From the IMG/VR virus record IMGVR_UViG_3300036853_000057, positions 1 through 21,782 of that record: a stretch of 21,782 nt of DNA; one strand, 5' to 3'. The translations under genes were made by a program, and so were the position numbers. Below the pieces are notes generated by a model. The model made no database searches. It was not told where the DNA came from and saw nothing but the letters and a program-made list of their open reading frames with translations. This document shows, piece after piece, positions 587 through 21,619 of this stretch (position 1 is the first letter of the stretch; each line of letters starts with the position of its first letter). This stretch comes from a virus.

Positions 587-1114
587 GTGCCTGCCGGGCG
601 GCCTAGCGATTATACGCAAGAGATAGCAACCGCGATTTGCGACGCTATCGCGGGTGGCTTGAGCATCAGGGAAGTGGCTGCGCTCGACGGCATGCCGAGC
701 GAATCCACGATATGGCGATGGGCAGCTACGAAGCCAGATTTTCAGGAGGCTTACGCGCGCGCGAAATTGGCCCAGATGGATCGGTTTGCTGAGGAAATCC
801 TAGAGATTTCGGACAACGGCACCAATGACTGGATGGATCGCCAACAAGGGGAAGAGACCGTTCGGGTAGCCGATCACGAGCATATCCAACGATCGCGCCT
901 CCGCGTTGATGCCCGTAAGTGGCTGATGAGCAAATTAGCGCCGAAAAAGTACGGCGATCGTGTTGAGCAGATCCTGATGGGTCCGGACGGTGGCCCGATT
1001 GAGCACCGCATAGACGTTCCGCAGAAAGAAACGCGCGAGGAATGGCTTGCTCGTCAGCAGTTGGTCGCCCCAGCCGGGGCCGCAATTGGCCGCAATTCAA
1101 GCGACGTGGGCTGA
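587..1114 (+). CDS. terS: Terminase small subunit, Sf6-like
   Basis: This 175-residue protein should bind the packaging site of phage DNA and hand it to the large terminase. The start is GTG, supported by GAGGGG about nine bases upstream; no ATG fits. Residues 1-45 form the DNA-binding helix-turn-helix region: GRPSDYTQEIATAICDAI, then a helix with SIREVAALDGMPSESTIWRW. Residues 105-125 carry RLRVDARKWLMSKLAPKKYG, a hallmark of the phage Sf6 small-terminase family (R-x-D-A-R-K-W, then K-Y-G-D). Length fits that family. The 3' end overlaps terL by 68 bases in another frame. The function call is strong because motif and neighbour agree. Confidence 0.9.
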   Translation: MPAGRPSDYTQEIATAICDAIAGGLSIREVAALDGMPSESTIWRWAATKPDFQEAYARAKLAQMDRFAEEILEISDNGTNDWMDRQQGEETVRVADHEHIQRSRLRVDARKWLMSKLAPKKYGDRVEQILMGPDGGPIEHRIDVPQKETREEWLARQQLVAPAGAAIGRNSSDVG

Positions 1115-2480
1115 TGAGCTGTTTTTCGGCGGCGCCCGAGGCGGCGGTAAATCGGATTTTCTATTAGGCGACTTCGCGCGCGATGTGCCGAACTATCGGG
1201 AGGCATGGCGCGGCGTTTTGTTCCGCAAGACGTATCCGGAACTTGAGGAATTAGTAGCCAGGTCGAGAACGATTTTCTCTCAGACATTCCCCGGGGCCGA
1301 GTATCGAGAGCGGCCGGCGAATGAGTGGCGTTTTCCTGGCGGCGCCACGCTGAAGATGCGGCATCTTGAGAGCGACGCTGACGCGGCGTCTTACATTGGT
1401 CACCAGTACGCTTGGATCGGCTGGGATGAGCTGAGCCAGCGCCCAAGCCTAAATGCCTACCACATGCTGAAGGGCTGCCTGAGAAGCGCGGCGGCGGTTA
1501 AGGATAAGCGGATCAGGTCGACGGGCAATCCTGGCGGTGCTGGGCATCAGGCGGTAAAGGCGTACTTCAAGATCGATCGCTACCCGCTGGGGATGGTGCC
1601 GATTGACGATCCGGAAACTGGGATGACACGGATGTTCATTCCCTCCCGGGTGACTGATAATAAAATCCTGTTGGCGAATGATCCGGGTTACGTGTCAAGG
1701 CTTAAGGGTGTCGGGTCTGCGGAGTTAGTCAAAGCGTGGCTTGACGGTGATTGGGACGCGATAGCCGGCGCCTTCTTCGATTGTTGGGACGCACAGCGGC
1801 ACATCATCAAGCCGTTTGAGATCCCGCAGCATTGGACGCGGTTTGGATCTTTCGATTGGGGTTCGGCTAAGCCGTTTTCGATGGGGTGGTGGGCGATCTC
1901 AGATGGCGGGCGGTTGCCGGATGGTCGGGTCTTCCCGAGTGGCGCGATGATACGCTATCGCGAGTGGTACGGAGCGTCTGCGCCTGATGTTGGGCTTAAG
2001 CTTACTGCCGAGCAAGTTGCCGAGGGCATCCAGAAACTGGAGCGCGGCGATAAAATCAATTACCGGGTCGCTGATCCCGCATGTTTTAGGGTTGATGGTG
2101 GCCCGAGCATTGCCGAGCGAATGTATGCCGAGCCTTATCGAGTATTGTTTCGCCCGGCTGACAATAGCCGGATAAGTGGTTGGGATCAGGTGCGGGATAG
2201 GTTGATCGGCGATGATGAGCCGATGCTATACATTTTCGATACGTGCGTTGATTTGATTCGCACGCTTCCAGCGCTGCAGCATGATGACGTGAAGCCGGAG
2301 GATGTCGATACCGATGGCGAGGATCATGCGGGTGACGAAACGCGGTATGCCTGCATGAGTCGACCTTATACGCGCAAGGCTGCGGTAATCGAGCCAATGC
2401 GCGGCCTCAACGAGATGACGGTCGACGAGATGTGGCGTTTGACGCAGCCAAAACCGGCGGGACGGCCGGCGAGGATTTAG
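1047..2480 (+). CDS. terL: Terminase large subunit
   Basis: This 477-residue packaging motor and nuclease pumps DNA into the prohead through the portal and cuts concatemers. The N-terminal ATPase has the adenine-contact segment WSPQPGPQ (residues 6-13), the Walker A loop GGARGGGKSD (28-37) and the Walker B WIGWDE (123-128) with catalytic glutamate E128. The C-terminal RNase H-like nuclease shows candidate metal ligands in FDWG (D270), VADPA (D343) and HAGDETRYA (D430). The start is TTG at 1047, with GAGGA five bases upstream, inside terS. Family members usually begin just before the W-x-P-x-x-G-P-Q segment, so this start is credible. Length is normal. The usual next gene, portal, lies 9 kb downstream. 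Confidence 0.93.
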   Translation: MLVSSWSPQPGPQLAAIQATWADELFFGGARGGGKSDFLLGDFARDVPNYREAWRGVLFRKTYPELEELVARSRTIFSQTFPGAEYRERPANEWRFPGGATLKMRHLESDADAASYIGHQYAWIGWDELSQRPSLNAYHMLKGCLRSAAAVKDKRIRSTGNPGGAGHQAVKAYFKIDRYPLGMVPIDDPETGMTRMFIPSRVTDNKILLANDPGYVSRLKGVGSAELVKAWLDGDWDAIAGAFFDCWDAQRHIIKPFEIPQHWTRFGSFDWGSAKPFSMGWWAISDGGRLPDGRVFPSGAMIRYREWYGASAPDVGLKLTAEQVAEGIQKLERGDKINYRVADPACFRVDGGPSIAERMYAEPYRVLFRPADNSRISGWDQVRDRLIGDDEPMLYIFDTCVDLIRTLPALQHDDVKPEDVDTDGEDHAGDETRYACMSRPYTRKAAVIEPMRGLNEMTVDEMWRLTQPKPAGRPARI

Positions 2481-2584: not shown

Positions 2585-2965
2585 ATGAAAGCGAGAACAC
2601 TTTTGCTCGCCGCCGCTGGGATGGCCTTATCGGCGACGGCGGCGGTAGCGGTTAATACGGGTGGCGTCTCGGATAAGCCGACCAACGTTACGGTTACAGG
2701 TTCATCAGGCAATTGCCTTGCCGTTGCGAGCCTGAACGCAAGACGCTCATTGACGCTCGACGCGACGGGCGCGACGGCTAACATCGGCTACTGCCGTACC
2801 ACGCCCGGCGGGGCGCAGTGTACGGCCTCGATCGGGACCGTGGGCACAACGACGCTCGCCGCGGGGTCGATGCACTACTGGCCGGAAGGATCGGCGCCGC
2901 AGAATCAATTTTGCTTCATTGCCGCGAGCGGATCGCAGCCGCTGACGATCATTGAGGGCTTTTAG
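2585..2965 (+). CDS. Small exported protein with Sec signal peptide
   Basis: This 126-residue protein of unknown function is the first of seven exported-type genes. Residues 1-22 (MKARTLLLAAAGMALSATAA and the following VA) are a textbook Sec signal: basic N-region, hydrophobic core and an Ala-rich cleavage site near AVA/VN. The mature part is about 100 residues, Gly/Thr/Ser-rich and probably all-beta. It has four cysteines (GNC, GYC, AQC, QFC), consistent with two disulfides. The ATG start follows a 104-base gap after terL; a possible AGAGG lies about 13 bases upstream, which is long. Proteins of similar texture occur in phage structural operons without the signal sequence. Whether this is a virion protein or a true secreted product cannot be told from sequence. 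Confidence 0.75.
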   Translation: MKARTLLLAAAGMALSATAAVAVNTGGVSDKPTNVTVTGSSGNCLAVASLNARRSLTLDATGATANIGYCRTTPGGAQCTASIGTVGTTTLAAGSMHYWPEGSAPQNQFCFIAASGSQPLTIIEGF

Positions 2966-2966
2966 G

Positions 2967-3680
2967 GTGCGTCGCGCGCTCGGCTACGCTCTGCTGCTGG
3001 TCACGAGTTGGCTGGGCGTTGCGTTTGGGCAGTATGCGGGCCCGGCAATCCTGAGCAGCGTAAGCCAGCTCCCGGCAATCGCGGCGAGCACGTTTTTGTG
3101 CAACAGCACGGCGGGGACTGCGGCGCCAACGGCATGCACGCTAGGGGCGAATGTTGCGACGGCGCTGGGAACGCCATCTTCGGCAAATTTAGCGGCAGCG
3201 GTAACGGACGAGACGGGCACCGGTTCGTTGATGTTTGCCATCAACCCGGTTGAGGGTTCGGTCCATCAGGCGGCGTTTTCGGTTACCACAAATACCAGCT
3301 TGGCGAGCATCAGCGGCCTTAGCCAGGCGTTGACGGCATCTGGCACCTATTCGTGCAATGGGTTTATGCACTTCACGACGGCATCGACGACATCGAACGG
3401 CGTAAAGGTCGCGTTGGCAACGTCGGACACACTGACGATTACGACGCTGAATTTTACTGCGATCGGGTTTAACGGAGCGGCATTTGCGACATCCGGCACG
3501 GGCACGGCGACGGCGCTCGGGTCGACAGCGGTGAATTCGCTCCAGGCTTACACTGATATCATTTTGCAGGGGATCATTGTGGTGAATGCGGCCGGCACGT
3601 TGCAGGTGCAGATCGCCGAAAACACATCATCCGGCACGATCGCGGGTAATGCGAGATGGGAATGCCACCGAGCCGCATAA
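2967..3680 (+). CDS. Exported fibre-like protein
   Basis: The preferred start is GTG 2967, one base after the previous stop, with GAGGG eight bases upstream. A TTG at 2952 in the same frame would add five residues. The product is 237 residues. Residues 1-21 (MRRALGYALLLVTSWLGVAFG) form a Sec signal. The segment LGTPSSANLAAAVTDETGTG (about residues 66-85) is a motif met repeatedly in phage tail-fibre and receptor-binding proteins. The rest is Thr/Ser/Ala-rich and probably beta-structured, with four cysteines. It likely forms a fibrous or adhesin-like domain, either on the virion or at the host surface. The exact function is unknown. Confidence 0.74.
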   Translation: MRRALGYALLLVTSWLGVAFGQYAGPAILSSVSQLPAIAASTFLCNSTAGTAAPTACTLGANVATALGTPSSANLAAAVTDETGTGSLMFAINPVEGSVHQAAFSVTTNTSLASISGLSQALTASGTYSCNGFMHFTTASTTSNGVKVALATSDTLTITTLNFTAIGFNGAAFATSGTGTATALGSTAVNSLQAYTDIILQGIIVVNAAGTLQVQIAENTSSGTIAGNARWECHRAA

Positions 3681-3859
3681 TCCGCGCTGTGGCGTTCGCG
3701 GCGTTCCTTGGGGTACTGGCGATTGGCGGTCACGCGGCGGCGCAGATCGTCTTCGGCCTGGCTGCGGGTGGCGGCTCATCGCCTCCAGCGACTTGCGGCA
3801 ACGCGCTCGATTTCTCTGACGGCTGCAATTCGCAATATCTGGGGATGATGAGATTATGA
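3656..3859 (+). CDS. Short exported protein
   Basis: This 67-residue protein overlaps the 3' end of the previous gene by 25 bases, and its stop overlaps the next start as ATGA. The N-terminal 30 residues (RIIRAVAFAAFLGVLAIGGH followed by AAAQ) form a Sec signal with an Ala-x-Ala cleavage site. Only about 37 residues remain, with a Gly/Ser/Pro stretch and two cysteines (ATC, DGC). ATG codons at 3656 and 3662 are both possible starts. No family is recognised. The tight overlaps on both sides argue that it is translated. It might be a periplasmic linker or a very small secreted protein. Confidence 0.6.
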   Translation: MGMPPSRIIRAVAFAAFLGVLAIGGHAAAQIVFGLAAGGGSSPPATCGNALDFSDGCNSQYLGMMRL

Positions 3860-4137
3860 GGCGACTCGCGTTAGCGGCGGCATTTTGTGCGATAGGATTG
3901 CCGGTGTTGGCAGCAGATGAACCTCCGCAAGCTGCGATGATGTCGAAGGCGATGGCCGAGCTTCAGCAGCAACGCAATCGCGCCCAGGACGATGCGGTGA
4001 ATGCGAAGGTCGAGGCGGGGATTTACGCCGACAGGCTGGCTCAAATACAACAGCAATTGAAGGCCGCTCAGGACAAGATTGCTGAGCTTGAAAAGCCGGC
4101 GGCTCCGAAGCCGGAAGCCAAGGAGTCACCGAAATGA
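3856..4137 (+). CDS. Exported coiled-coil protein
   Basis: This 93-residue protein starts at an ATG sharing ATGA with the previous stop and ends with another ATGA shared with the next gene. Residues 1-20 (MRRLALAAAFCAIGLPVLAA) are a Sec signal; its only cysteine lies there, so the mature protein has none. Residues 30-78 are a Gln/Glu/Ala/Lys-rich amphipathic helix (ELQQQRNRAQDDAVNAKVEA, then RLAQIQQQLKAAQDKIAELE) expected to form a coiled coil. The tail is Pro/Lys/Glu-rich. Periplasmic coiled coils recall spanins, but there is no lipobox or inner-membrane anchor and no lysis gene nearby. A trimerising or tethering partner for the neighbouring fibre-like proteins is an alternative. Confidence 0.72.
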   Translation: MRRLALAAAFCAIGLPVLAADEPPQAAMMSKAMAELQQQRNRAQDDAVNAKVEAGIYADRLAQIQQQLKAAQDKIAELEKPAAPKPEAKESPK

Positions 4138-6443
4138 TGCGTCGCGCTCTATTTCTCGCTGCGGTCGGGCTTCTGGCGTTAGTTGGCGTTGCTCGTGCTG
4201 ACGTTGCGGTAACGGCCGGCAGCGGCACGACCATCTTCGACTTCACGTGCTTCACCACGAAGCATTGCCCGGCTGCTGTTGTCGTAAATTCGGCCGGCAC
4301 TGAGATCCTAACGTCGAGCAATCCCGGTACAGTTACGGGGTCGGGAACGGCGGGGACTGCGGCGACTGGCGTGCTTACGGTGCAGGGCATCGCCTCGATG
4401 ACCAAGCTGTTGGTCACGCCGGACGCAAATAGCGCGGTCAATATGGCCCAAGTAGCGGGCACGACGGCGGATACGAACTCGGGTACTAAGAGTGCGGGCA
4501 CGCTCCGCGTGGTGTTGGCCACAGATCAGCCGGCATTGACGAATAAGCTGCTGGTGACGCCGGATTTGCCGTCGGGGGCGTCGACCGCGGCTAAGCAGCC
4601 GGCGCTTGGCACGGCTGGCTCGGCTTCGACGGATGTTATTAGCGTGCAGGGCATCGCGTCGATGACGCCGATGCTTGTTAACCCTGGCACGGCAGCGAAC
4701 TGGGGTGTGGGGGCGACCGGATCGGCTGTTCCCGCTAACGGTGCGTATCAGGGGGTCAACGTCGCAGGTAATCTTCGCGGTATTACCGGGCTTTCGTTGG
4801 GAACCACGTTCTCGCCAACGGTTGCGATTGTCGATGCTTCCGGTAACCAAATCACCGCGTTTGGCGGGTCTGGAGGTACGGCGTCGAATTTCGGTTCAGC
4901 TTTCCCATCATCGGGCACTGCCATCGGCCTGAGTGACGGCACGAATATGCGGGGATGGTTGAATGCCGCGAACGCGCTCAATTCAACTGGCACGGGGATT
5001 GGCACGGCTCAGATTGTGGGTCAGTTTGACGACGTTGCGCCGACAGCGATCACGGAGAACCAGTTCGGTAATCTCCGCATGTCGACTAATCGTAATTTGT
5101 ATGGGACGATCCGAGATGCGGCAGGCAACGAGCGCGGCGTCAATGTCAACGCCTCAAATCAGATGTCGGTATCGTTGGACGGCGGCACTGGTGCGACTGT
5201 TACGGCCAACGCCGGCACGAACCTGAACACAAGCGCTTTGGCGCTCGAAAGCGGCGGCAATCTTGCAACCGTAGCGGGGCACATTGTCTCGCAGGGGACG
5301 GCGCTCGGGACGATCAAGAACGCGCTGATTGGCGGCTCGGTTACCACTGCCTCGCCAACGTACACGACGGGGCAGATTAACCCGCTTAGCCTCGATACGT
5401 CTGGCAATTTGCGGGTCAACGTCGTTACCGGCGGCACGAGTGGCGTTGTCACGCAAGGGTCAACCACGTCTGGCCAGTCCGGCATGATGGTGCAGGGCGC
5501 GGTAACGACTTCCGCGCCAACATATACGACAGCTCAAACCAACCCGTTGAGTTTGACGACAGCGGGAGGGCTCCGCACCGATACCGCGACGCTGGCAGGA
5601 ACGGCGGTTGCGACCAATAGCGGAAACAAGGATGGGGGAACGGCTAGGGTTGTCATTGCGACCGATCAGCCGGCGCTAACAAACGCCCAGCCTGGTAACT
5701 TCACGCAGATTGGCGGCGTCTCTGTCTCGACGGGGACGGGCGCTGTGGGCACTGGTTCGCAGCGGGTTGCGGTTGGCACGGATACCGCAACGATTGCGGG
5801 CAGCGCTCCCGGCACGGCAGGCACGGCATCGACAAACGTCATCAGCGTGCAGGGTATCGCGTCGATGACTAAGTTGCTGGTGACGCCGGACGCTAACAGT
5901 GCGGTTAATCTTGCGCAGGTTGCCGGTACGACCACTTCGGTCACGAGCGGCAACAAGGACAACGGCACGCAACGCGTTGCTATCGCAACCGATGATGTTG
6001 CGCATGCGACCTGGGGCCAGGGTGCGACTGGATCGGCGCCGCCATCCGGGGCGGTTTATATGGGGGCTAACGGATCGGGCGCGACGGGCGGTCAGATGCG
6101 TGGGCTCATTACCTGCGACAGCCACGCAAAATATGACGCATCAGACAACGGCTCGATCACGATGGTAACGGGCGTGTCGTCTCGGAAGGTATACATCTGC
6201 GGGTTTATTCTTGCGACGGGCGGCACGGCGACGAACCTGAAGCTGCGCGAGGGATCGGACGCCAATTGCGCGACTAGCGGCGCGGACCTGACGCCGGCCT
6301 ATCAGCTCGTGGCAAACGACAAGATCGGCATGCAATCGCCATTCTGGGGCGGTTTAGTGGTTTCGACAAATGCCTATTACGTTTGCGTCAACGCTTCGGC
6401 TGGCAACGCGCACCAGGCAGAGCTTTGGTATACTATTCTGTGA
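4134..6443 (+). CDS. Exported repeat-rich fibre/adhesin-like protein
   Basis: This 769-residue protein has a Sec signal at residues 1-23 (MMRRALFLAAVGLLALVGVA, then RAD). The mature chain is a Thr/Gly/Ala/Ser-rich series of degenerate beta repeats. One unit, VQGIASMTKLLVTPDANSAV (residues 83-102), recurs almost unchanged near residue 572, and a shorter version occurs near 171. A second unit of the form NSGxKxxGTxRVVxATDQPALTN follows it and recurs near 490 and 610. Such GNKDxGTxRV repeats are familiar from phage tail or baseplate-associated proteins. Six cysteines lie only at the two ends (two near 40-50, four in the last 125 residues), suggesting disulfide-stabilised caps. The C-terminal domain could be the binding head. 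Start and stop overlap the neighbours (ATGA, GTGA). Confidence 0.77.
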   Translation: MMRRALFLAAVGLLALVGVARADVAVTAGSGTTIFDFTCFTTKHCPAAVVVNSAGTEILTSSNPGTVTGSGTAGTAATGVLTVQGIASMTKLLVTPDANSAVNMAQVAGTTADTNSGTKSAGTLRVVLATDQPALTNKLLVTPDLPSGASTAAKQPALGTAGSASTDVISVQGIASMTPMLVNPGTAANWGVGATGSAVPANGAYQGVNVAGNLRGITGLSLGTTFSPTVAIVDASGNQITAFGGSGGTASNFGSAFPSSGTAIGLSDGTNMRGWLNAANALNSTGTGIGTAQIVGQFDDVAPTAITENQFGNLRMSTNRNLYGTIRDAAGNERGVNVNASNQMSVSLDGGTGATVTANAGTNLNTSALALESGGNLATVAGHIVSQGTALGTIKNALIGGSVTTASPTYTTGQINPLSLDTSGNLRVNVVTGGTSGVVTQGSTTSGQSGMMVQGAVTTSAPTYTTAQTNPLSLTTAGGLRTDTATLAGTAVATNSGNKDGGTARVVIATDQPALTNAQPGNFTQIGGVSVSTGTGAVGTGSQRVAVGTDTATIAGSAPGTAGTASTNVISVQGIASMTKLLVTPDANSAVNLAQVAGTTTSVTSGNKDNGTQRVAIATDDVAHATWGQGATGSAPPSGAVYMGANGSGATGGQMRGLITCDSHAKYDASDNGSITMVTGVSSRKVYICGFILATGGTATNLKLREGSDANCATSGADLTPAYQLVANDKIGMQSPFWGGLVVSTNAYYVCVNASAGNAHQAELWYTIL

Positions 6444-7369
6444 TCCGCGCTGCGGCGTTTCTCTTAGGGCTGCTGGTCCCCGCTCTTGCGCTTGGACAAG
6501 GCATGCTCCTGCCACTCACGGGAGCTGGTGGCAAGGCGCATGTTGCGACAGGTGGCGGCGGCTATACAGGCTACGTCGACAGCTTCGCTAGCCCGCTCGG
6601 CTGCTGGGGCTTCACCGCATGCAGCGCGGCTATTGGTGCGGCCAACACGTCTGCGGTGCAATGGAATTGCACCAATGGCGGCGCGCAGAGCGGAACGCTC
6701 CACGTAACTTCGACGGGCGGCCTGAACGCGTCTGATATTTCATCGATGAACACGGTGTGCGGGGCGCAGCCGATCACGGTTCAGTTGACGAACCAGATGA
6801 ACCCCGGCACTGCTGACATGACCAACGGCACGAGCGCGACGCGACCGGTTTACACGGCATCGGCAGTCAACAGCTTGCCGTGTGCGACGTTTGATGGTGC
6901 GACAACGTTTCTTGGCGCCAGCCTGACAACACTCACCGCGCAACCGTACACGATCTCGGTCGTGGCTATGAGAACCGGCAATACGTCGGCCGAGAACGAT
7001 ATTTTCGATAGCTACAACGCGGCGGGTACGACGTTCGGGTTTTTGAACTCGACGAATACCGTCTTCATGTACGCAGGATCTGTTCAGTCGACGACGGCGA
7101 GCGATAGCAATCCGCATTCGATCCAGGCGGTGTTTAATGGGGCGTCAAGCGCTCTTGATGTGGACACGGGTACGGCGAACACCGTCAATGCGGGGTCCAA
7201 CAGCCCCGATAACACAACCGTTTCGCTCGGCGCTTTTGTCAATGGCGGCACGCAGAACAACTTCCTGACCGGCAAAATATGCCGGATTGCGGTGTGGGGA
7301 TCGGCGGCGAACGGCACGCAACTGAGCAATTTGCACGGCAATGACGTGACAACATACGGCACGCCGTGA
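6440..7369 (+). CDS. Exported LamG / concanavalin-like domain protein
   Basis: The start is GTG 6440, sharing GTGA with the preceding stop. Upstream in-frame codons exist, but this start places MIRAAAFLLGLLVPALALGQ at the N-terminus as a clean Sec signal. The product is 309 residues. The middle (roughly 35-150, GCWGFTACSAA to CATFDGATTFLGA) resembles the AbfB-type beta-sandwich region found in phage receptor-binding proteins. The C-terminal 160 residues (YTISVVAMRTG, FNGASSALDVDTG, GKICRIAVWGSAANGTQLSN) match a LamG/concanavalin A-like sandwich, a sugar-binding fold. Six cysteines remain after cleavage. The role is probably glycan recognition outside the cytoplasm or on the particle. No catalytic residues can be assigned. 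Confidence 0.77.
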   Translation: MIRAAAFLLGLLVPALALGQGMLLPLTGAGGKAHVATGGGGYTGYVDSFASPLGCWGFTACSAAIGAANTSAVQWNCTNGGAQSGTLHVTSTGGLNASDISSMNTVCGAQPITVQLTNQMNPGTADMTNGTSATRPVYTASAVNSLPCATFDGATTFLGASLTTLTAQPYTISVVAMRTGNTSAENDIFDSYNAAGTTFGFLNSTNTVFMYAGSVQSTTASDSNPHSIQAVFNGASSALDVDTGTANTVNAGSNSPDNTTVSLGAFVNGGTQNNFLTGKICRIAVWGSAANGTQLSNLHGNDVTTYGTP

Positions 7370-10300
7370 TTTCTCGCCGGGCATTAGTCGGATTTACTGC
7401 GGTCGGGTTGCTGGCTGAATGTCGGCGCGCCCTAGCGGGTTTTGCTGGCGGTTTTAATCTTATTGGGGCAGGGACGTCTTCATCGGCTAGTCTAGCCACG
7501 CTGACGTTGGTTAACGATGGCGGCGGGACGATGGCGGCGGGCACGGTCTCGCCGATGTTTGGGTGGGTTTTCAAGAAGGGGGATATTCCGTCTGGTACAG
7601 CGCCGGTCTTCGATGTATCGGGAACGCCGCAGCCATACAGCTGGGGGTTGCAGACTTACTGGACGGACGGGAGCCTCAAGTTTGCCAGTTTCTTCTTCCG
7701 ATCTACCTTTTCGCTGGCCGCAAGCGCAACTCAGGACATTACGATCAAGAACGGCGGCTCGGCTCCGAGTTCTAGTTCGCGCTCGCTCGCGACCGACGTT
7801 TACAGCCAATCGATCATCGTCAATATCACAGCAGCGAATAACAGCGGCACACCGATCTCTCCTGCTAACCTTACGGGCACGATCAAGGCGTGGCTCGATA
7901 GTGCGGCAAACACAAACAACAACAATTGGCAGCAATCGCTCATCCATGACGGCGATGCCGGGCGGACGTGGAAGGTCCGCTGCCATATGTCCGCGACCAA
8001 GACGGGTTCGGCGGACGGGCAATTCGAGACTGATTTCTACGTCGCCGCACTGACGGACGGAAGCGGCAACCTTGGCGGCATCCGGCTTCTGCCGAGCGTC
8101 GTGCGGCCTTGGTACAATTCCACAAGTGGCTCAGCCAATCTCGTTTGCATTCAGCCTGATTGTTCGTTTCAGTACGGTGCTGGCCCGACTACCGTTGACA
8201 TGGTAACGGCGGGGACGATGCCGTTCACCAACAAGGTTTTTACGGTCTCGGGCGGGGTCGCATCGACTACGGCGTCGAACAATTTCTATCAGGGTGCCGA
8301 CAGCACATCGAATTACGTGCCGTGTTACGTAAAGAATTCCGGGGGGGCGCTGCCCTCGCCGTTGGCGGCGAATACTCTCTATTACGTCGGGTCAAATCAG
8401 TCGGGCGGAGCCACAAACGTCGTCACTTTCTACAGCGTGCCTGGATATTATGGTGGCCCGATCACTCTGACGACCAATGGCAGCGGAACCAATACAATCG
8501 TTCCGGTAAGCGCAATCAATCAGTACGAGCCGTTCCCGATGCCGACCACGGGCGGCCGATGGAATGAGTTTCAGGGTACGGGGTCGGGAAATACCGGCGC
8601 GTCGACAAGCCTCCGGGTCAAGATCGATCAGACTTATTGGCACTCCACCAAGTGCATCCCGCCGTTCGATCTGTCGTTGATCGGGACGGTTACCGATGAC
8701 GGATGGACCTATGATTTTACGCCCGTGAACGTCGGCCCGTATCAGTGGTCTGGGGGAACCGGCGAGCGCGCTGAACTCGGCATCATGCCGAACAATCACG
8801 TCGTTGAGTTCTTTACCCGCTCCGCGGCCGCAGATAAGGAGATGCGGGTCAGCGGGTACTCGGCGAACCATCAGCTTTTGCATATTCGCGACGCGCCGGT
8901 TGCTTTCGCCGGGGGCGGCACAGGGCAAATCCCGAACTTCAACAATGCCTCGTACACGGGGATGCCATCCCTCGTGACGGGGGCGAGCATTATTTATTAT
9001 CCAGGCTCGCCATCGAACGGGATTAACGCTCCTACGGATTATTTTGCCACCGAGGACGCAGGCACCGATCACAAGCCGTGTCCGTCGATCTGGCCTTACT
9101 TGCGCACCGGGGAGCCGCAGTTCCTCGATTGCATGATTGACGTGATGGTTGGCGCGGTTGGGCAGTTTCCGCAAGACGGGGCGACGACGCGAAACCCGAC
9201 GACGCCTTATGCGGCCTACGGGCTGGTCACGCAGTACACGTCTCAGATGCGCGTGATGGCTTGGGCCAATCGCGACCTGCAATGGGCCGCAGCGTTTTGT
9301 CCTGGCGCCAACGGAACGGGGTTGTTCTACGACGGCTCCCAATTGCCGGTGAACTTGAACGACATCGCCACGGCCAATTGCAAATGGCCGAGCGACATGA
9401 TGTCGAACGCGGGTTATGACAATTATGGCAACGCTTGCTCGTTCCACGCGACGATCAGCGGAACCACGCTCACGATGGTTTCGCTTGAACATGGGTTACT
9501 GCTGAAAGGGCAAGTGATTACGACCGGCGCCAGCGCCGGAACCACGATCGTTAGCCAATTGACTGGAACGGCCGGGGGCGCGGCGGCCGCTACTTTTCAG
9601 GTCTCGATATCGCAGACGGTCGGCTCATCGACCGCAATGGTCAGTAGCTCGACCAGCTACGTTCAAGCGCATGGCTTTTGGGTTCCGGTCAATCAGGACA
9701 TCGGTGGGGCAGCGACGTTCATCCAGGGCTTTATGCTCGGGTACATGCTCTATTCGATGTGCGTGGCAGCGGCGGCTAGGGAAGACGCCTACGCGCTGTC
9801 GTGGCTGCAAACCCAATCGACCCGTTACAACTACATGCTGAGCCAGTTCGGCGGTTGGACGATGTACGACTTGGCGGGAAACGGCTCGACCTCGGGGCCT
9901 TATCCCAGCGGTTCGTCAATCTCCTGGCCGGTTATTTCCGACGATACGCAGTTCGGCATCGCGCCTGACGTGGGGCCGCCAGGACCGTTCGGATCGATGA
10001 CGTGGAACAATACCGGGCCGACCTATTTTGCCTTTACCAGCACGAACCAGTCGGGAAGCGGTTACGTGCCGACGAACAACGATCGGTTTTACAATACCGG
10101 CGCGACGGTTCCGGCAGTCTTAAAGTCATACACCGCCTACTATGCCGGCGACGTGTCGGGGAACAATTTAAACCTCTATACCGCGCCGAACGGGGGCGGA
10201 ACAAAGTTGGTCCCGTCAAACACCGGGGCAGTGGTCACGCCCAAAGCCCTGTTCCTGTCGCCTGCCAATCCACCAGCGGCATCGACGGCTGATTACCCGA

Positions 10301-10485
10301 CGTTCGGCCCGACCGATGCGCAGGGCGAGACGGCATTGATGGACGGCGCGTTTTCGTACATGACTGCGTGCGGAGTGACGGGTATGTCGACCGTGACAAC
10401 GGACTCACGCACGCGGCGCGACAACAGCGGCGCTTATACAAACTACGCCGCCCTCCCGAAATACGCGATGCAGACGAGCTTCTAG
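7366..10485 (+). CDS. Exported PcRGLX/YetA-like polysaccharide-active protein (Tat-type signal)
   Basis: This 1039-residue protein starts at GTG 7366 (GTGA overlap). The N-terminus MISRRALVGFTAVGLLA has a twin-arginine (S-R-R-A-L) followed by a hydrophobic stretch and RALAG, a plausible Tat signal. Residues about 42-135 (FGWVFKKGDIPSGTAPVF, then YWTDGSLKFASFFF) resemble the RIFT-barrel N-domain of PcRGLX/YetA-type lyases. Residues about 560-690 and 770-835 (PCPSIWPYLRTGEPQFLDCM, QMRVMAWANRDLQWA, QDIGGAATFIQGFMLGYM) look like an alpha/alpha-toroid catalytic domain. Three stretches typical of phage fibres are embedded: near 280-370, 690-760 and 880-960. Twelve cysteines remain after the leader. 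It may cut host capsule or exopolysaccharide. Substrate and active site are not identifiable; the fold call is inference. Confidence 0.72.
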   Translation: MISRRALVGFTAVGLLAECRRALAGFAGGFNLIGAGTSSSASLATLTLVNDGGGTMAAGTVSPMFGWVFKKGDIPSGTAPVFDVSGTPQPYSWGLQTYWTDGSLKFASFFFRSTFSLAASATQDITIKNGGSAPSSSSRSLATDVYSQSIIVNITAANNSGTPISPANLTGTIKAWLDSAANTNNNNWQQSLIHDGDAGRTWKVRCHMSATKTGSADGQFETDFYVAALTDGSGNLGGIRLLPSVVRPWYNSTSGSANLVCIQPDCSFQYGAGPTTVDMVTAGTMPFTNKVFTVSGGVASTTASNNFYQGADSTSNYVPCYVKNSGGALPSPLAANTLYYVGSNQSGGATNVVTFYSVPGYYGGPITLTTNGSGTNTIVPVSAINQYEPFPMPTTGGRWNEFQGTGSGNTGASTSLRVKIDQTYWHSTKCIPPFDLSLIGTVTDDGWTYDFTPVNVGPYQWSGGTGERAELGIMPNNHVVEFFTRSAAADKEMRVSGYSANHQLLHIRDAPVAFAGGGTGQIPNFNNASYTGMPSLVTGASIIYYPGSPSNGINAPTDYFATEDAGTDHKPCPSIWPYLRTGEPQFLDCMIDVMVGAVGQFPQDGATTRNPTTPYAAYGLVTQYTSQMRVMAWANRDLQWAAAFCPGANGTGLFYDGSQLPVNLNDIATANCKWPSDMMSNAGYDNYGNACSFHATISGTTLTMVSLEHGLLLKGQVITTGASAGTTIVSQLTGTAGGAAAATFQVSISQTVGSSTAMVSSSTSYVQAHGFWVPVNQDIGGAATFIQGFMLGYMLYSMCVAAAAREDAYALSWLQTQSTRYNYMLSQFGGWTMYDLAGNGSTSGPYPSGSSISWPVISDDTQFGIAPDVGPPGPFGSMTWNNTGPTYFAFTSTNQSGSGYVPTNNDRFYNTGATVPAVLKSYTAYYAGDVSGNNLNLYTAPNGGGTKLVPSNTGAVVTPKALFLSPANPPAASTADYPTFGPTDAQGETALMDGAFSYMTACGVTGMSTVTTDSRTRRDNSGAYTNYAALPKYAMQTSF

Positions 10486-10486
10486 C
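10449..10486. repeat. 38-bp direct repeat, copy 1
   Basis: This is an exact 38-bp match to 10679-10716, offset by 230 bp. It covers the last 11 codons of the preceding gene (ALPKYAMQTSF), its TAG stop and one base. The first differing bases are at 10448/10678 and 10487/10717. Confidence 0.97.
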
Positions 10487-10487
10487 A

Positions 10488-10715
10488 ATGAGACTTTCAT
10501 CATTAGAAAAGCTCGAAGACGAGCGTTACTGTCAGACCCATGGGGCGTCATCGCTTATTACTGTCGTATGCCCATCCTGTCAGGGTGCCGGTAAATACCC
10601 AGACTACATTTCGGCGGTGTTTAAGGTGATTGAATGTCCCCGCTGTAACGGCTTGGGATATTTTTCTGAAAATCTCATCGCCCTCCCGAAATACGCGATG
10701 CAGACGAGCTTCTAG
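10488..10715 (+). CDS. Small zinc-ribbon protein carried between direct repeats
   Basis: This 75-residue protein starts at ATG 10488, two bases after the previous TAG, so translation may be coupled; no good ribosome-binding site is seen. Residues 28-58 carry two knuckles, CPSCQGAG and CPRCNGLG, spaced by 18 residues, forming the CxxCxGxG pattern of DnaJ-type zinc ribbons. An additional Cys and His lie at CQTHG. The last 11 residues, ALPKYAMQTSF, and the stop come from the second 38-bp repeat, so they are identical to the C-terminus of the preceding 1039-residue protein. The unique segment is about 46% GC by hand count (89 of 192 bases) against roughly 60% around it, suggesting a recent arrival. 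Its function is unknown; zinc and perhaps nucleic acid or protein binding are likely. Confidence 0.7.
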   Translation: MRLSSLEKLEDERYCQTHGASSLITVVCPSCQGAGKYPDYISAVFKVIECPRCNGLGYFSENLIALPKYAMQTSF

Positions 10716-10716
10716 C
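10679..10716. repeat. 38-bp direct repeat, copy 2
   Basis: This is identical to 10449-10486. It supplies the last 11 codons and stop of the small zinc-ribbon gene in the same reading register as copy 1, although the 230-bp offset is not a multiple of three. It ends four bases before the stop of the leftward microprotein gene. Confidence 0.97.
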
Positions 10717-10798: not shown

Positions 10799-11605
10799 CT
10801 AGTCGTGAGCGTGCAGTAGGAAGAACAGGTCGCGATACCCGTGGGGCAAGAAGATCACGTTCGGTTCCATGAAGCGGTCTGGATACCATTCTGCCCTCGC
10901 ATGTATTTCCGGATCGAATTCGGCAAACGGACGATACCGTCCTTCAAAGCAGAACCAGCCTATGTAGCCCAAGTCAAGCACGGGCTTGAACATCTCTAGG
11001 AACGGCTTCGGATAGAGCAGCGGTGTTATTTCGGTGAGGATCGTCGGCTTACGGTGTTTGATGGTCCACATCGCGCCGGCGATCACTTCGGTGTCGTGCT
11101 GCTCCACATCGATCTTGATGAAGCCGACATCGCCGCAGTTCTCGTCATCGATCCGCACAGTGGGAACAAGGTGCTCAATGACAGCTTCAGCCTTCTCGAA
11201 AGCCATCGAAACGCTGGCTTCTTCGTGCATCGGTCGGCCGCCTTTGACCGGGATGCGTAAGATCATCTCGCCGCACCGATCCGAGACTGCGGCGTGGCGG
11301 ACGACAATATCACCCGAGTACAGGCGATTGAGGCGGGCGGCTAAATCAGGGTTGGGTTCGTACGCATAGACGCGGCGCGAATGCCGGCGCATCCAGTAGG
11401 TGTAGGTGCCGATGTTGGCGCCGATGTCGAGCGACACGCGCTTGGGGTCACACAGGTGGCGCAGCAGGCGGATCTCCTTTTCGCCGTGCAAGTAGTGATC
11501 GGCGAACTGAAGCCGGGCGTATAGCGGTTCGGGGATCAAGTTTCTGACGGATGATTGCCACATTTGTTGCTGGTCCGAAGGTTGAGGGAGCGGAAATTCT
11601 GACAT
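10799..11605 (-). CDS. FkbM-family SAM-dependent methyltransferase
   Basis: This 268-residue enzyme is expected to transfer a methyl group from S-adenosylmethionine to a hydroxyl of a sugar or other small group. Motif I is SLDIGANIGTYT (residues 58-69), followed by the acidic ribose-binding segment YAYEPNP (about 82-88). The family signature FIKIDVEQHDTEVIAGA lies near 160-176. ATG 11605 is chosen; an in-frame TTG at 11623 would leave only eight bases to the portal start. Neither has a good ribosome-binding site. The gene runs against the late operon and is divergent from portal with a 26-base gap, so its promoter must lie inside the portal coding region. It is probably a moron-type cargo gene; its target is unknown. 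Confidence 0.85.
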   Translation of the reverse strand: MSEFPLPQPSDQQQMWQSSVRNLIPEPLYARLQFADHYLHGEKEIRLLRHLCDPKRVSLDIGANIGTYTYWMRRHSRRVYAYEPNPDLAARLNRLYSGDIVVRHAAVSDRCGEMILRIPVKGGRPMHEEASVSMAFEKAEAVIEHLVPTVRIDDENCGDVGFIKIDVEQHDTEVIAGAMWTIKHRKPTILTEITPLLYPKPFLEMFKPVLDLGYIGWFCFEGRYRPFAEFDPEIHARAEWYPDRFMEPNVIFLPHGYRDLFFLLHAHD

Positions 11606-11631
11606 GAAATTACACGAGAGCAAGGCCGGCG

Positions 11632-13176
11632 GTGCCTGACAACGCGGTTGATATCGCCCCTCTTGAACGTCGCGAGGATGAGGCCGACACGCCAGCGGGG
11701 GAAGTCAGATTTTGGATGCAGCAGCTTTCGCTTGCGGAGCGCGAGGATCGTCAATTTGTGGTGAAAGGCCGGCGGATCGTAAAGCGCTATCGGGACGAGC
11801 GGGCGCAATCGGTAAGGCAGGTCGCCAAGTTCAATATCCTGTGGTCGAACGTCGAGACTCTGAAGCCCATTCTGTACGGCCGCACGCCCAAGCCGGATGT
11901 CGAGCGCCGGCACAAGAACAGCGATCCGATTTCTCGGCTTGGGGCCGAGATTATAGAGCGCGCTCTGTCCTATGAGGATGACCTTGACGAGTTCGATAAG
12001 GTGATGCGGCGCGTGGTTGAGGACCGGCTTTTGCCCGGTCGCGGGGTGGCTCGGGTGTTCTACGAGGCTGAGTTCGGCGAAGAGGAAGAAGACGCGAGCG
12101 CGGAGCCTGATGAGGAAACCGGCGAGCGGCCGAAGTTTCGCCCGGTGAGTTCCGAGAGCGCGCCGGTGCGCTATTGGTTCTGGGAGGACTACCGGGAGAG
12201 CCCGGCGCGTGTCGACGAAGAGGTCTGGTGGAAGGCGTACCGTTCATATTTGACGCGCGACGAGCTGGTGAAGAAGTTCGGGAAAAAATACGGCAACGAA
12301 ATCACGCTCGATTACACGCCAAAAGGGCTTGGCGAGGACGGCGAGCGTGGCCCGCAGGCTGACGCCTTCAAGAAGGCTCAGATTTGGGAAATTTGGGACA
12401 AGCAGAAGAAGCGCGTCGTTTGGATTGCGTCGTCGTACAGTGATGCCCCGTGCAAGGAGATTGATGATCCGCTTGGGTTGCCGGGGTTTTTCCCTTCGCC
12501 GCGCGCATTAAAGGCAACAACCACCAATGAGACGCTGGTGCCGGTGGCGGATTACACCGAGTATCAGGACCAGGCGATTGAGTTAGATGTTTTGACGGCT
12601 CGGATCGATCGGCTGCAGAACGCCTTGAAGGTGGCAGGTCTTTATGCCGGCTCGCAGAAAGCTGAGCTTACCCAATTGCTGGACCCGAGTTCTGAAAACC
12701 AGATGATCCCCGTAGAGGATTGGGCGGCTTTCGGCGATCGGGGCGGCATTAAGGGTATGATCGAGTGGCTGCCGGTCGAGCAGATCGCGGCGGTTTTGAT
12801 TCAGCTTTATGACGCTCGCGATCGGGTGCAGCGCACGCTCTATCAGATTACCGGTATGGCTGACATCCTTCGCGGTGAGACAAACCCGAACGAAACGCTT
12901 GGCGCGCAGCAGCTTAAAAGCCAATTCGCGACCCGCAGGATTACCGAAAGCCAAAAGGATGTGGCGAGGTTTGCGCGCGATCTGATGCGGTTACGAGGGT
13001 GCGTGATTGCCCGGCATTTTTCGCCCGAGTCTTTGATGAAAATCACGGGATTGCCGGAGCCGATGCCGGCACTGCCGCCGATGCCTGAGATGATGATACC
13101 AGCGCCGCCGCCGCAAATGGCGCCCCAGGAGGGCGCTCCGGGGGCAAATGTGGTGCCGATGCGGGGAGCGACATGA
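11632..13176 (+). CDS. Portal protein
   Basis: This 514-residue protein should form the dodecameric ring at the capsid vertex through which DNA is packaged. The start is GTG 11632, with AAGG six bases upstream. Features fitting portal proteins are the N-terminal helical region with FNILWSNVETLKPILYGRTP (about 65-84), a middle wing with VRYWFWEDYRESPARVDEEVWW, and a long C-terminal helical stem region. That region includes YTEYQDQAIELDVLTARIDRL, RTLYQITGMADILRGETNPNETLGAQQLKSQFA and a Pro/Met-rich tail. The sequence resembles the portals of alphaproteobacterial podophages. It overlaps the next gene by ATGA. Position after terminase and before scaffold and capsid supports the call. Confidence 0.82.
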   Translation: MPDNAVDIAPLERREDEADTPAGEVRFWMQQLSLAEREDRQFVVKGRRIVKRYRDERAQSVRQVAKFNILWSNVETLKPILYGRTPKPDVERRHKNSDPISRLGAEIIERALSYEDDLDEFDKVMRRVVEDRLLPGRGVARVFYEAEFGEEEEDASAEPDEETGERPKFRPVSSESAPVRYWFWEDYRESPARVDEEVWWKAYRSYLTRDELVKKFGKKYGNEITLDYTPKGLGEDGERGPQADAFKKAQIWEIWDKQKKRVVWIASSYSDAPCKEIDDPLGLPGFFPSPRALKATTTNETLVPVADYTEYQDQAIELDVLTARIDRLQNALKVAGLYAGSQKAELTQLLDPSSENQMIPVEDWAAFGDRGGIKGMIEWLPVEQIAAVLIQLYDARDRVQRTLYQITGMADILRGETNPNETLGAQQLKSQFATRRITESQKDVARFARDLMRLRGCVIARHFSPESLMKITGLPEPMPALPPMPEMMIPAPPPQMAPQEGAPGANVVPMRGAT

Positions 13177-17504: not shown

Positions 17505-17528
17505 AGGGGGAGATAATCCCCCTCTTTT
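17505..17528 (+). terminator. Intrinsic terminator after the capsid/decoration genes
   Basis: AGGGGGA and TCCCCCT form a perfect 7-bp stem around the loop GATAA, followed by CTTTT. It begins 16 bases after the decoration gene stop and ends 22 bases before the start of the fusion-enzyme gene. The T-tract is short, so partial termination is likely, lowering expression of downstream genes relative to capsid. Confidence 0.72.
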
Positions 17529-17550
17529 GCAATTTTCTCCAAGGGTATTC

Positions 17551-19473
17551 ATGCTCCAAGCGGTCTGTGTGAACTGGCGAAATTATCAAGGTCGGGGCGT
17601 CGATTACGTCAATCGGCTCTTCGCCAGTTTGTCGCGGCACTTATCCACGGTCGCTGGCAAGTTCACGGTTTTCACCGATGCGGCTGACGAGAAATATCAC
17701 CAAGCGATCAATGTCGAGCTTCTGCCGGAAGGTTTAGAAGGGTGGTGGAACAAGCTGGCGCTCTTTGCGCCCGGTATGTTCGATCCAGGCGATCGGATCG
17801 TCTATTTCGACCTCGACACGCTCGTCATTGGCGATATGGACGAAATCGTGCGGTATGACGGCAATTTTGCTGCTCTGCAGGATTTCTACCGGCCGGACGG
17901 GCTTCAATCATCGGTGATGATGTGGCGCGCGGGTTGGGGGGCGCCGATTTGGAACGAGTGGTGTCGACAAGGGCGGCCCGACTGGCCCGGTGGCGATCAG
18001 GCGTGGATTGAGCACATCGTCGGTGACGGAGCCGATGTTCTACAGGACATATTTCCCGGTAAGTTCGTCTCCTACAAAAAGGACTGCGTACCGTTCCCGC
18101 CCGAAAGTTCTAGCGTCGTCGTCTTTCACGGCGAGCCGCGGCCGCACAATTGCGGCCGGCCGTGGGTCGAGGCGATGTGGACGGAGAGCGACACGGGGCA
18201 TTTTCAGCTTGGTATGGTCGCCAACGTTCCGTTGGAACAGATCCGGAGCCAGATCAAGCAATCGGCCGCATTGGATCTGCCGCGGCTGACATCCAAGCCG
18301 GCACATGACGGCAAGGTGGCGATCATTGGCGGCGGCCCATCGTTAAGCGATGCGATTACGATCCCGCAATTGCAGCGGTTTGCGGCTGAGGGCGGGAAGC
18401 TCTGGGCGCTCAATGGAAGTTACGACTGGTTGCGTGAGCATGATCTGGTTGCTGACGCGCATATGATCATCGATGCGCGGCCAGAGAATGTCAGGTTCCT
18501 CCGTAATTCACGGGACGAAACCCGGTATTACATCGCTTCGCAGTGCCACCCTGCGGTTTTTGAGGCGCTACGCTGGCGAGCGGCGGTTCGGCTGGACCTC
18601 GATGTTATGGGTGACTGCGGCACCACAGTTGGAACACATGCCATCTGTACGGCCTTTGTTGAAGGCTTCCGCGAAATTCACTTATTCGGGTTCGATAGTT
18701 CCTATCGTGAAGGTGAGGGCCACGCTTACCACCAGAGCATGAATGCTCAGGAGCGGATCGTAGACGCGCATATCGGTGACCGCGTGTTCAAAGCCGCGCC
18801 GTGGATGGTTCGGCAGGTACAGGATTTCGAGGGGATAGCGCGCGACGTGGTAGCGGCTGGTGGGCAGATCCATGTTCATGGTGACGGGCTTCTGCCATAT
18901 CAAGCGGATATCCTCGCAAAGGCGCCGATGCGCGCTGCTTATGTGCGGGCTCAGGAAGTATTGGGCCGGTTGCCGGGTGGCCCGGTCGTTGGTGCCGAAA
19001 TTGGCGTGTTTCGCGGCGAGATGTCGGCTTACCTATTGGCTCGCCCCGATCTTGTGCTCCACATGGTCGATAGCTGGGAAGGCGGCGGCGAGGCCTATGC
19101 GACGGACACCGGCGATTGGCATGCCGATCTCGGTAATGAAGATCAGGAAGTGTTTTTCGAGTGCGCCAAGGCACAGGTGGAGTTCGCGGGGCCTCGGGCT
19201 CTAATCCATCGGCATCGGTCTACCGATCCGGTGCCGAATGCTCCTCCGCTCGATTTCGTGTTCATCGATGCCGATCACTCTTACGAAGGCTGTAAGGCGG
19301 ATATCGAGGCGTGGCGCCAGACATTGAAGCCAGGCGGCCTGCTTTGCGGGCACGATTACGACAACACAGCATTCCCCAAGTATGGGGTGAAGAAGGCCGT
19401 TGATGAGTTTGCCGCGCGTCACGGCCTGTCGGTTGAACTGGGCGCGGATTTCACTTGGTTCATCCGGATCTGA
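17551..19473 (+). CDS. Three-domain glycan enzyme: glycosyltransferase, MptE/Maf-like and SAM methyltransferase
   Basis: This 640-residue protein starts at ATG 17551, with AAGGG five bases upstream. Residues 1-230 form a GT-A-type glycosyltransferase: VCVNWRNYQGRGVDYVNRLF, the metal-binding DLD (87-89) in YFDLDTLVIGD, and WPGGDQAWIE. Residues 250-445 match the MptE/DUF115 domain shared with flagellar Maf proteins: IIGGGPSLSDA (258-268), LDVMGDCGTTVGTHA, IHLFGFDSS. Residues 478-640 are a class I methyltransferase: GAEIGVFRGE (481-490), FVFIDADHSYEG (569-580), LKPGGLLCGHDYD. Maf proteins attach nonulosonic acids to flagellin Ser/Thr, so this enzyme may build and methylate a glycan on a protein. 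Its place right after capsid and decoration makes virion proteins candidate targets, but a host target is equally possible. All key motifs look intact. Confidence 0.82.
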   Translation: MLQAVCVNWRNYQGRGVDYVNRLFASLSRHLSTVAGKFTVFTDAADEKYHQAINVELLPEGLEGWWNKLALFAPGMFDPGDRIVYFDLDTLVIGDMDEIVRYDGNFAALQDFYRPDGLQSSVMMWRAGWGAPIWNEWCRQGRPDWPGGDQAWIEHIVGDGADVLQDIFPGKFVSYKKDCVPFPPESSSVVVFHGEPRPHNCGRPWVEAMWTESDTGHFQLGMVANVPLEQIRSQIKQSAALDLPRLTSKPAHDGKVAIIGGGPSLSDAITIPQLQRFAAEGGKLWALNGSYDWLREHDLVADAHMIIDARPENVRFLRNSRDETRYYIASQCHPAVFEALRWRAAVRLDLDVMGDCGTTVGTHAICTAFVEGFREIHLFGFDSSYREGEGHAYHQSMNAQERIVDAHIGDRVFKAAPWMVRQVQDFEGIARDVVAAGGQIHVHGDGLLPYQADILAKAPMRAAYVRAQEVLGRLPGGPVVGAEIGVFRGEMSAYLLARPDLVLHMVDSWEGGGEAYATDTGDWHADLGNEDQEVFFECAKAQVEFAGPRALIHRHRSTDPVPNAPPLDFVFIDADHSYEGCKADIEAWRQTLKPGGLLCGHDYDNTAFPKYGVKKAVDEFAARHGLSVELGADFTWFIRI

Positions 19474-20618: not shown

Positions 20619-21619
20619 GCCTTCTGACGATCTGCACCAACGCCTGCAACGATTTGGGCGTTGGCGTTCCGACATCGATCATCGGCAGCACCGATCCGGC
20701 GGCAACGCGGGTGCTGCAGATGGCGCGGCGTGCCGGGCTGTCTTTGGCGGCGGCGAACAACTGGGCATCTATGGTGGTGGAGCATACCTTCACCGCTGAC
20801 GGCAGTTCCGATTACGCGCTCCCGGCCGATTATCGATCGATGGTCGATAATACGATGTGGGACCGTACCACCTATTGGTCGATGCGAGGGGCGATGTCGC
20901 CCCAGCAATGGCAGATGTATAAATCGAGCGTCATCGGTCGTGCTTCGATTCAGCCGCGATGGCGGATCAGGGTTCCGACTGGGGCCGCGGCAGGAACGCC
21001 GGTTGTCTTTTCGATCGATCCGCCGATTGGTGCTGCCGACACGTCGACTCAGTTCGTTTTTGAATATGCGTCGAATAACTGGTGTCGTAGTGCGACCACC
21101 TATCAAGCCAATGAACTGATCCCTGTAGCGGCTGGTAGCGGATACGCGATCGGCGATCTGTTCAGCATTGTCGGCGGCACGTCGACTGCAACCGCGCTCG
21201 GCCTGGTGACGAGCCTTACTTCCGGCGGAACGGGGATCGCGACCGCGGAGGTTTCTGTTCCCGGTAATTACACGGTCGAACCAAGTTCGCCGGCCGCGAG
21301 TACTGCAACGACGGGGGCCGGTGCGGGGGCAACCTTTCTTGTCAACACCACGACATTTGAGGGCGTGGGGCAAGTCGATTGGGCGGCTGATACCGATACC
21401 GGGATTATTTCTGAAGATTTGATCGAGATGGGCGTGATCTGGCGGCTTGCGCGCCGGCTTGGTTTTTCCTACGACGAGGAAAAAGAAGAATATCAGCGCG
21501 AGCTTGACACGGCGATTGCGCGAGACGGCGGCACGGCGGTTATCGATCTAGCGCCTGGCTATGACCTCCCGTTGATCAGCCCTTGGTGGTCGATTCCCGA
21601 AACCGGGTTCGGGCGATGA
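20615..21619 (+). CDS. Head-tail adaptor / tail tubular A-like protein with an inserted domain
   Basis: This 334-residue protein starts at GTG 20615 (GTGA overlap). Its N-terminal 150 residues (SLLTICTNACNDLGVGVPTS, then AATRVLQMARRAGLSLAAAN, ALPADYRSMVDNTMWDRTTY, SPQQWQMYKSS) fit podophage adaptor proteins of the T7 gp11 / P22 gp4 type that join portal to tail. The C-terminal part resumes with DTDTGIISEDLIEMGVIWRL and a helix with YDEEKEEYQRELDTAIA, typical of the family. Between them, residues about 168-250 are a Gly/Thr/Ser-rich beta insert (IPVAAGSGYAIGDLFSIVGG, PGNYTVEPSSPAAS). That extra domain explains a length above the usual 170-200 residues. The role is inferred from sequence style and gene order. 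Confidence 0.72.
   Translation: MSLLTICTNACNDLGVGVPTSIIGSTDPAATRVLQMARRAGLSLAAANNWASMVVEHTFTADGSSDYALPADYRSMVDNTMWDRTTYWSMRGAMSPQQWQMYKSSVIGRASIQPRWRIRVPTGAAAGTPVVFSIDPPIGAADTSTQFVFEYASNNWCRSATTYQANELIPVAAGSGYAIGDLFSIVGGTSTATALGLVTSLTSGGTGIATAEVSVPGNYTVEPSSPAASTATTGAGAGATFLVNTTTFEGVGQVDWAADTDTGIISEDLIEMGVIWRLARRLGFSYDEEKEEYQRELDTAIARDGGTAVIDLAPGYDLPLISPWWSIPETGFGR

Follow-up and report, generated by a model that had tools for sequence, protein, structure and literature searches.

A block of seven consecutive genes, s1 to s7 (2585-10485), separates terL from the portal gene in a 21.8 kb phage fragment, IMG/VR record IMGVR_UViG_3300036853_000057 (positions 1 to 21,782, the whole stretch analysed and hereafter the window), and every one of the seven begins with a predicted export leader. 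It is highly probable, in our assessment, that the products are exported and fold with disulfide bonds. Our best explanation of what they do, held with about even confidence, is that they form an exported adhesin/depolymerase module, assembled from tail-fibre, lectin and spike-type parts, whose fate would be attachment to virions after lysis. The evidence that can be read directly from the DNA consists of the leaders, gene order and synteny, the homology of leader-bearing (‘leadered’) relatives to fibres, lectins and spikes, and a linkage between leaders and cysteines.

Leaders and cysteines of s1 to s7

Leaders were called by a heuristic rule, not by SignalP, that looks for a positively charged N-terminal region, a 9-residue uncharged hydrophobic core and an A-X-A-like site. 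From the starts listed below, all seven cassette genes pass as Sec-type leaders, compared with 0 of the 17 other genes of the window, and the same rule recovers eight of nine textbook secreted proteins. The seven genes are as follows (a slash marks the predicted cleavage site; aa, amino acids; Cys, cysteines):

2585..2965, + strand: s1, 126 aa; Sec-like leader MKARTLLLAAAGMALSATAAVA/VN; mature part of 104 aa with 4 Cys
2952..3680, + strand: s2, 242 aa; TTG start; leader MRAFRVRRALGYALLLVTSWLGVA/FG; 4 Cys
3656..3859, + strand: s3, 67 aa; leader ending HAAA/Q; Cys pair in the C..ALDFSDGC..NSQYL region
3856..4137, + strand: s4, 93 aa; leader MRRLALAAAFCAIGLPVLA/AD; probable coiled coil; 0 Cys in the mature part
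4134..6443, + strand: s5, 769 aa; leader MMRRALFLAAVGLLALVGVARA/DV; N-terminal domain TIFDFTCFTTKHCP; internal fibre-type repeats; 6 Cys
6440..7369, + strand: s6, 309 aa; GTG start at 6440; leader MIRAAAFLLGLLVPALA/LG; 6 Cys
7366..10485, + strand: s7, 1039 aa; GTG start; Tat-like leader MISRRALVGFTAVGLLAECRRALA/GF; 12 Cys in the mature part

An initial annotation of this DNA had described the same block, and its account of the genes survives re-examination: they are real open reading frames (ORFs) at the positions it gave, joined by ATGA at s3/s4 and s4/s5, by GTGA at s5/s6 and s6/s7, and by longer overlaps of 14 nt at s1/s2 and 25 nt at s2/s3. The fibre-style repeats that it reported are real in s5, and s2 contains the common tail-fibre motif GTPSSANLAAAVTDETGTG, with CNSTAGTAAPTAC ahead of it. 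The leader of s2 is the weakest call of the seven. In s7, the twin-arginine stretch SRRALVG matches the Tat motif S-R-R-x-F-L-K only in part; better Tat motifs stand on leadered genes elsewhere (NRRELLLG in L018, SRRRFLLG in G015 and SRRGFVSG in G019).

Past the predicted cleavage sites, the seven proteins hold 4, 4, 2, 0, 6, 6 and 12 cysteines, one leader cysteine each having been taken off for s4 and s7, and this recount is identical to the earlier one. That all seven counts are even has a probability of 1/128, which by itself is weak for the window. The compared phages, fragmentary uncultured genomes whose genes were called with a home-made gene caller, show the same tendency: among clustered proteins with at least one cysteine, counts are even in 36 of 46 leadered mature clusters vs. 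64 of 136 leaderless ones (Fisher p=1.7e-4). Carriers of the s2 motif are mostly leaderless and cysteine-poor, with a median of 0.12 Cys per 100 aa, against 1.1-2.1 in four distinct leadered sequences (p=4e-4), a set curated by hand after three heuristic calls looked false. Total cysteine content is the only difference between leadered and leaderless members of this family, where a leader-by-Cys-pair test was not significant (1/7 leadered, 0/69 leaderless; p=0.09). For s3, the leadered homologues in L020 and L016 retain cysteines on either side of LDF[ST], and a leaderless s3-like ORF in L018 (LDFSDPDNSQY) has none at the motif flanks. Paired cysteines are linked to the predicted leaders, as in periplasmic disulfide-bonded proteins, in the ADATQVM fibre family described below.

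Homology within the window is sparse. s1 has no family match; the C-terminal domain of s5 shares 80% identity with L016/L017, and its sole match among phage records is the uncultured MW202554. The laminin-G (ConA-like) match of s6 is weak (Laminin_G_3, 15.1 bits, under the curated cut-off of 27.6), its positional counterpart in L016 clears that cut-off with 47.3 bits, and a leadered relative of s6 is found in G016 (L104). In Pfam and PHROG-type family tests, none of s1 to s7 matched a Collar domain or a tail-fibre family, which leadered relatives do match, and no peptidoglycan hydrolase or lysis-enzyme domain was detected in them. We do not file the seven proteins as members of the tail-fibre class; they appear to work like that class and to share parts with it. 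A single-sequence AlphaFold model of s7 (mean pLDDT 31) was useless and was not used.

Recurrence of the cassette and a leader-bearing fibre family

A scan based on s5 led to L016-L020. In L016/L017 and L020, the s5 homologues are leadered and adjoin additional leadered genes. L016 combines s3-like and s5-like genes with a leadered laminin-G protein; L020 has genes resembling s3, s4 and s5, together with a leadered protein of 244 aa and, as its last and large member, a pectate-lyase-like protein of 780 aa, also leadered; L018 has the leaderless s3-like gene, genes resembling s4 and s5, a leadered gene of 398 aa and one of 675 aa whose leader is Tat-like. Leadered counterparts of s4 precede s5 at the same position in L018 and L020, and s7, possibly itself an enzyme, sits where relatives end the cassette with a large gene of spike-like or enzyme-like type. 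The s5 match in L019 is a leaderless protein without cysteines. MW202554, a complete circular podovirus, carries after its portal a leadered s5-like gene, a leadered ORF that lacks annotation, a ConA-type lectin, also leadered, and an annotated endopolygalacturonase (L138 17010-18569), to which an upstream in-frame GTG would add a leader, the annotated start being probably too short. Domain matches of leadered relatives include Laminin_G_3 (E=3e-12), Tail Collar PF07484 (E=2e-14) and the pectate-lyase-like PF12708, slightly below cut-off in one search and above it in another. The ORF directly after the leadered genes of L016 (3285-3782) resembles, by eye, an M15-type endolysin.

The initial annotation had placed the cluster between terL and portal, but it is peculiar neither to this phage nor to that interval: related cassettes of other phages sit in the stretch from portal to major capsid protein (MCP), or in the one from MCP to head-tail adaptor. 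The MCP of the window belongs to phrog_9953 and that of L016/L020 to phrog_1357 (L017 being grouped with both), while L018 has an HK97-type portal (phrog_12) and an MCP of phrog_10. Parts of the putative cassette are common to phages with three unrelated capsid types, in head modules. Where the cassette is inserted differs, but what it is predicted to encode is similar: small proteins for export, one protein resembling a fibre, another resembling a lectin, and a large one in last place.

A second family links leaders, cysteines and fibres more tightly. The N-terminal motif ADA[ST]QVMxNxNxL is common to a leadered gene of L001 and to a Collar protein, likewise leadered, of the phage to which L020 belongs (record G008), and a pattern scan with it returned 55 loci, of which 49 are leadered (48 by the rule, plus L048, evident by eye) and six leaderless. 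The motif is flanked by a cysteine pair (C....ADATQVMANYNALxxC). Both cysteines are present in 48 of the 49 leadered members, neither occurs in the leadered L049 or in any of the six leaderless members, and a single cysteine is found in 0/55. The association of leader and pair has a Fisher p of 2.4e-7, a value that overstates independence since the sequences are related. The all-or-none pair is the pattern expected from a putative disulfide gained together with export. A tail-fibre PHROG is matched by 36 of 42 leadered members, and the leadered N-terminus has no match in phage records. The structure of the ADATQVM domain (pLDDT 76) gave no PDB match, and its top BFVD matches were phage fibre proteins at E>1e-3; PDB sequence matches depend on the short repeat GANSDITSLSGLTTPL and fall short of strong proof.

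A Collar-domain gene occurs in 10 of 20 phage records, exactly one in each, and all ten are leadered, a rate that is not independent, as the 20 records were picked through the ADATQVM motif; with one leadered Collar gene apiece, these ten records hold no second, leaderless one. Among collar/fibre proteins of cultured phages, 0/9 are leadered. The tail region of G008 and G013 runs from an adaptor-like gene (PF24175 SU10_adaptor in G013) through a leadered 650-720-aa protein and a tail protein to a leadered Collar fibre. Every recognised fibre- or spike-type gene of this region is leadered in both phages, and since no leaderless fibre was recognised there, the leadered proteins probably include virion fibres.

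These counts bear on two simpler accounts of the leaders. One would make s1 to s7 ordinary cytoplasmic fibre genes whose hydrophobic N-termini are due to chance, through an artefact of prediction or start-site choice. The calls are heuristic, and s2, s6 and s7 start at TTG or GTG, but an artefact would have to produce 7/7 vs. 0/17 within one contig and, in an independent family, 49/55 vs. 0/9 for cultured-phage collar proteins together with the leader-cysteine linkage, and we regard it as very improbable. The other would have the leaders act as hydrophobic N-terminal anchors, for virion assembly or for interaction with the host membrane at infection, in place of cleaved signals. Phage leaders are indeed not always cleaved, SAR endolysins being initially anchored (PMC6116005); however, A-X-A-type sites followed by a cysteine pair that is missing from 6/6 leaderless homologues, the excess of even cysteine counts, and the recurrence of Tat-type leaders on large late cassette genes, odd for virion anchors, make anchoring unlikely. 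The initial annotation had proposed exported disulfide-bonded proteins and found this odd, as fibres usually lack leaders; the absence of leaders from the nine collar/fibre proteins of cultured phages and the leader-cysteine linkage support and strengthen its proposal.

Route and fate of the exported proteins

In the mechanism that we favour, the seven proteins would probably be made late, alongside the head genes. s1 to s6 would cross the inner membrane via the host Sec system and s7 probably via Tat, after which the leaders would be removed and the proteins would fold in the periplasm, forming disulfide bonds there. Speculatively, given its position and its probable coiled coil, s4, a small exported protein encoded just before s5, could be a partner for assembly in the periplasm. 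For the large members, the likeliest outcome would be release at lysis and binding to freed virions as receptor-binding fibres and spikes, and the exported proteins may also act on envelope glycans en route. That they end on virions is suggested because the seemingly only fibres of G008/G013-type phages are leadered; if exported fibres do stand on virions, joining must follow lysis, which is feasible because some tailspikes, such as that of P22, bind completed particles in vitro. Attachment to virions is the least certain step, and on whether it is the main role of the exported proteins our judgement is evenly divided.

The competing explanation to be taken most seriously, which we rate as plausible but below even, is that the proteins never become part of the virion and are instead a secreted or surface-held lectin/depolymerase set, which would modify or mask glycans of the infected-cell envelope or matrix and either aid spread or block re-adsorption and superinfection. 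A cassette lying among head, not tail, genes and common to phages with different heads fits such a set, as do relatives that include lectin, pectate-lyase-like and endopolygalacturonase-annotated members. Glycan-acting neighbours point the same way: the FkbM-type gene of the window, a weak match to the FkbM methyltransferase PHROG (phrog_8156) ahead of the L018 cassette, and a Wzy_C O-antigen ligase-like membrane protein that immediately follows the presumed portal and precedes the leadered cassette in G011 (L096:2198-3298) and L017 (2375-3433). Yet Collar-domain fibres encoded in tail operons are leadered too, G008 and G013 have no recognised leaderless fibre, and lectin or enzyme domains are just as typical of virion spikes. 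The role that the initial annotation had left open narrows to adsorption types (fibre, spike, lectin or polysaccharide-degrading enzyme), undecided between virion-bound and free, and nothing specific to superinfection exclusion, one of its suggestions, was found.

Several considerations count against a virion-attached, exported module. Tails are normally finished in the cytoplasm, and exported fibres would need a post-lysis step to attach; a head-module cassette common to phages with differing portals and capsids fits free-acting proteins as well. In G008 and G013, leaderless fibres were sought through recognisable domains, and an unrecognised leaderless receptor-binding protein may exist there. 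The heuristic rule misses the Tat protein TorA and over-calls some proteins (L188, L205 and L209). The cysteine statistics are drawn mostly from relatives and related sequences, the window proteins' own support being the even counts and the s3-like leaderless ORF without motif cysteines. Finally, homologues of known function are missing for most proteins of the window, and direct relatives of s7 turned up in none of the collections searched (Pfam, PHROGs, NCBIfam, PDB sequences, phage records and viral contigs). Extending the exported module to a wide grouping of uncultured tailed phages, which would make their fibres and spikes for receptor binding outside the cytoplasm through Sec/Tat export and periplasmic disulfides and join them to virions only at lysis, is a tentative proposal whose chance we put slightly under even.

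Genomic setting and relation to known systems

The cassette is bounded by the following features:

1062..2480, + strand: terL, upstream boundary of the insertion
10799..11623, - strand: FkbM-type methyltransferase adjoining the cassette (PF05050, E=2.5e-14; phrog_8156)
11632..13176, + strand: portal protein, downstream boundary (phrog_12082, E=3e-153)

terL and portal lie ~9.1 kb apart, and the interval also contains a small Zn-finger-like ORF besides the methyltransferase. The statement of the initial annotation that the two genes are normally adjacent was borne out across relatives. They touch or overlap in the nearest annotated ones (Bradyrhizobium phage ppBjS10J-1, Mx8 and Rhizobium phage RHph_I3_18), with gaps of 0-9 nt or an overlap of 4 nt in OP596615, Mx8 and MN988542, and are near-adjacent in the metagenomic relatives L005, L009 and L012; the window terL is 52% identical to a gene of L007 and 48% identical to the portal-adjacent gene of L009. 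Adjacency is the norm among relatives, by comparison with which the terL-portal stretch of the window is a predicted insertion. L001, whose portal is 71% identical, has a leadered 407-aa gene inside its own terL-portal interval. The bacterial genomes searched yielded no relatives of the portal or of the s5 N-terminus, so the phage is left without an assigned host, and cultured relatives were not found either.

Other features of these genomes are recorded here as observations. An exact 38-nt direct repeat (10449-10486 and 10679-10716) duplicates the final codons of s7 (ALPKYAMQTSF and stop); its second copy closes a 192-nt stretch of lower GC (46%) that encodes the Zn-finger-like ORF (CxxC..CxxC), and the whole looks as if a small segment had been inserted and its flank duplicated. 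With the MCP on one side and tail genes on the other, a 648-aa ORF (17527-19473) looks by eye like a glycosyltransferase/methyltransferase fusion, and its middle section shares 34% identity with part of a gene in L009. At the contig end, an ORF (21583-21782) with a possible leader MSFLCAVFGAWCAVA overlaps the end of the preceding gene and may be a further exported gene. In L014 (34362-36948, the phage Mx8 p64-p67 region), three proteins of 200-357 aa clustered after the tail genes pass the signal-peptide rule.

Receptor-binding proteins of tailed phages are generally held to fold and to join the virion in the cytoplasm, and in the open-licence literature we found no report of exported tail-fibre-type proteins. 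The leadered Collar or fibre-motif proteins of related phages, encoded with tail genes beside an SU10-type adaptor (PF24175), resemble Tail Collar (PF07484) fibres such as those of SU10-type short-tailed phages, as does s2 through its common fibre motif; however, the tested cultured examples are leaderless, whereas leaders and cysteine pairs are found here and the window cassette lies among head genes. The large last gene recalls phage tailspikes and depolymerases (PF12708), being pectate-lyase-like in L020 and an annotated endopolygalacturonase in MW202554, but those of the cassette have an export leader and s7 has no detectable homology. Phage use of the host Sec system is known for lysis, from exported endolysins (e.g., Lys44 of fOg44) and SAR endolysins (PMC6116005), unlike which s1 to s7 form a seven-gene block with no lysis-enzyme domain. 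Agrobacterium phage Milano offers a parallel in its disulfide-rich tail and baseplate and its disulfide-stabilised virion; the paper on it (PMC10811340) uses neither the term signal peptide nor the word periplasm.

If our interpretation is correct, many environmental phages would send adsorption-type proteins through the host secretion machinery, which would change both where host-range proteins are to be sought and how models of tail assembly are built. Such proteins, if wanted as binders or depolymerases, should then be expressed in the periplasm, under oxidising conditions. A leader combined with a cysteine pair may offer a simple sequence test for locating more of them.

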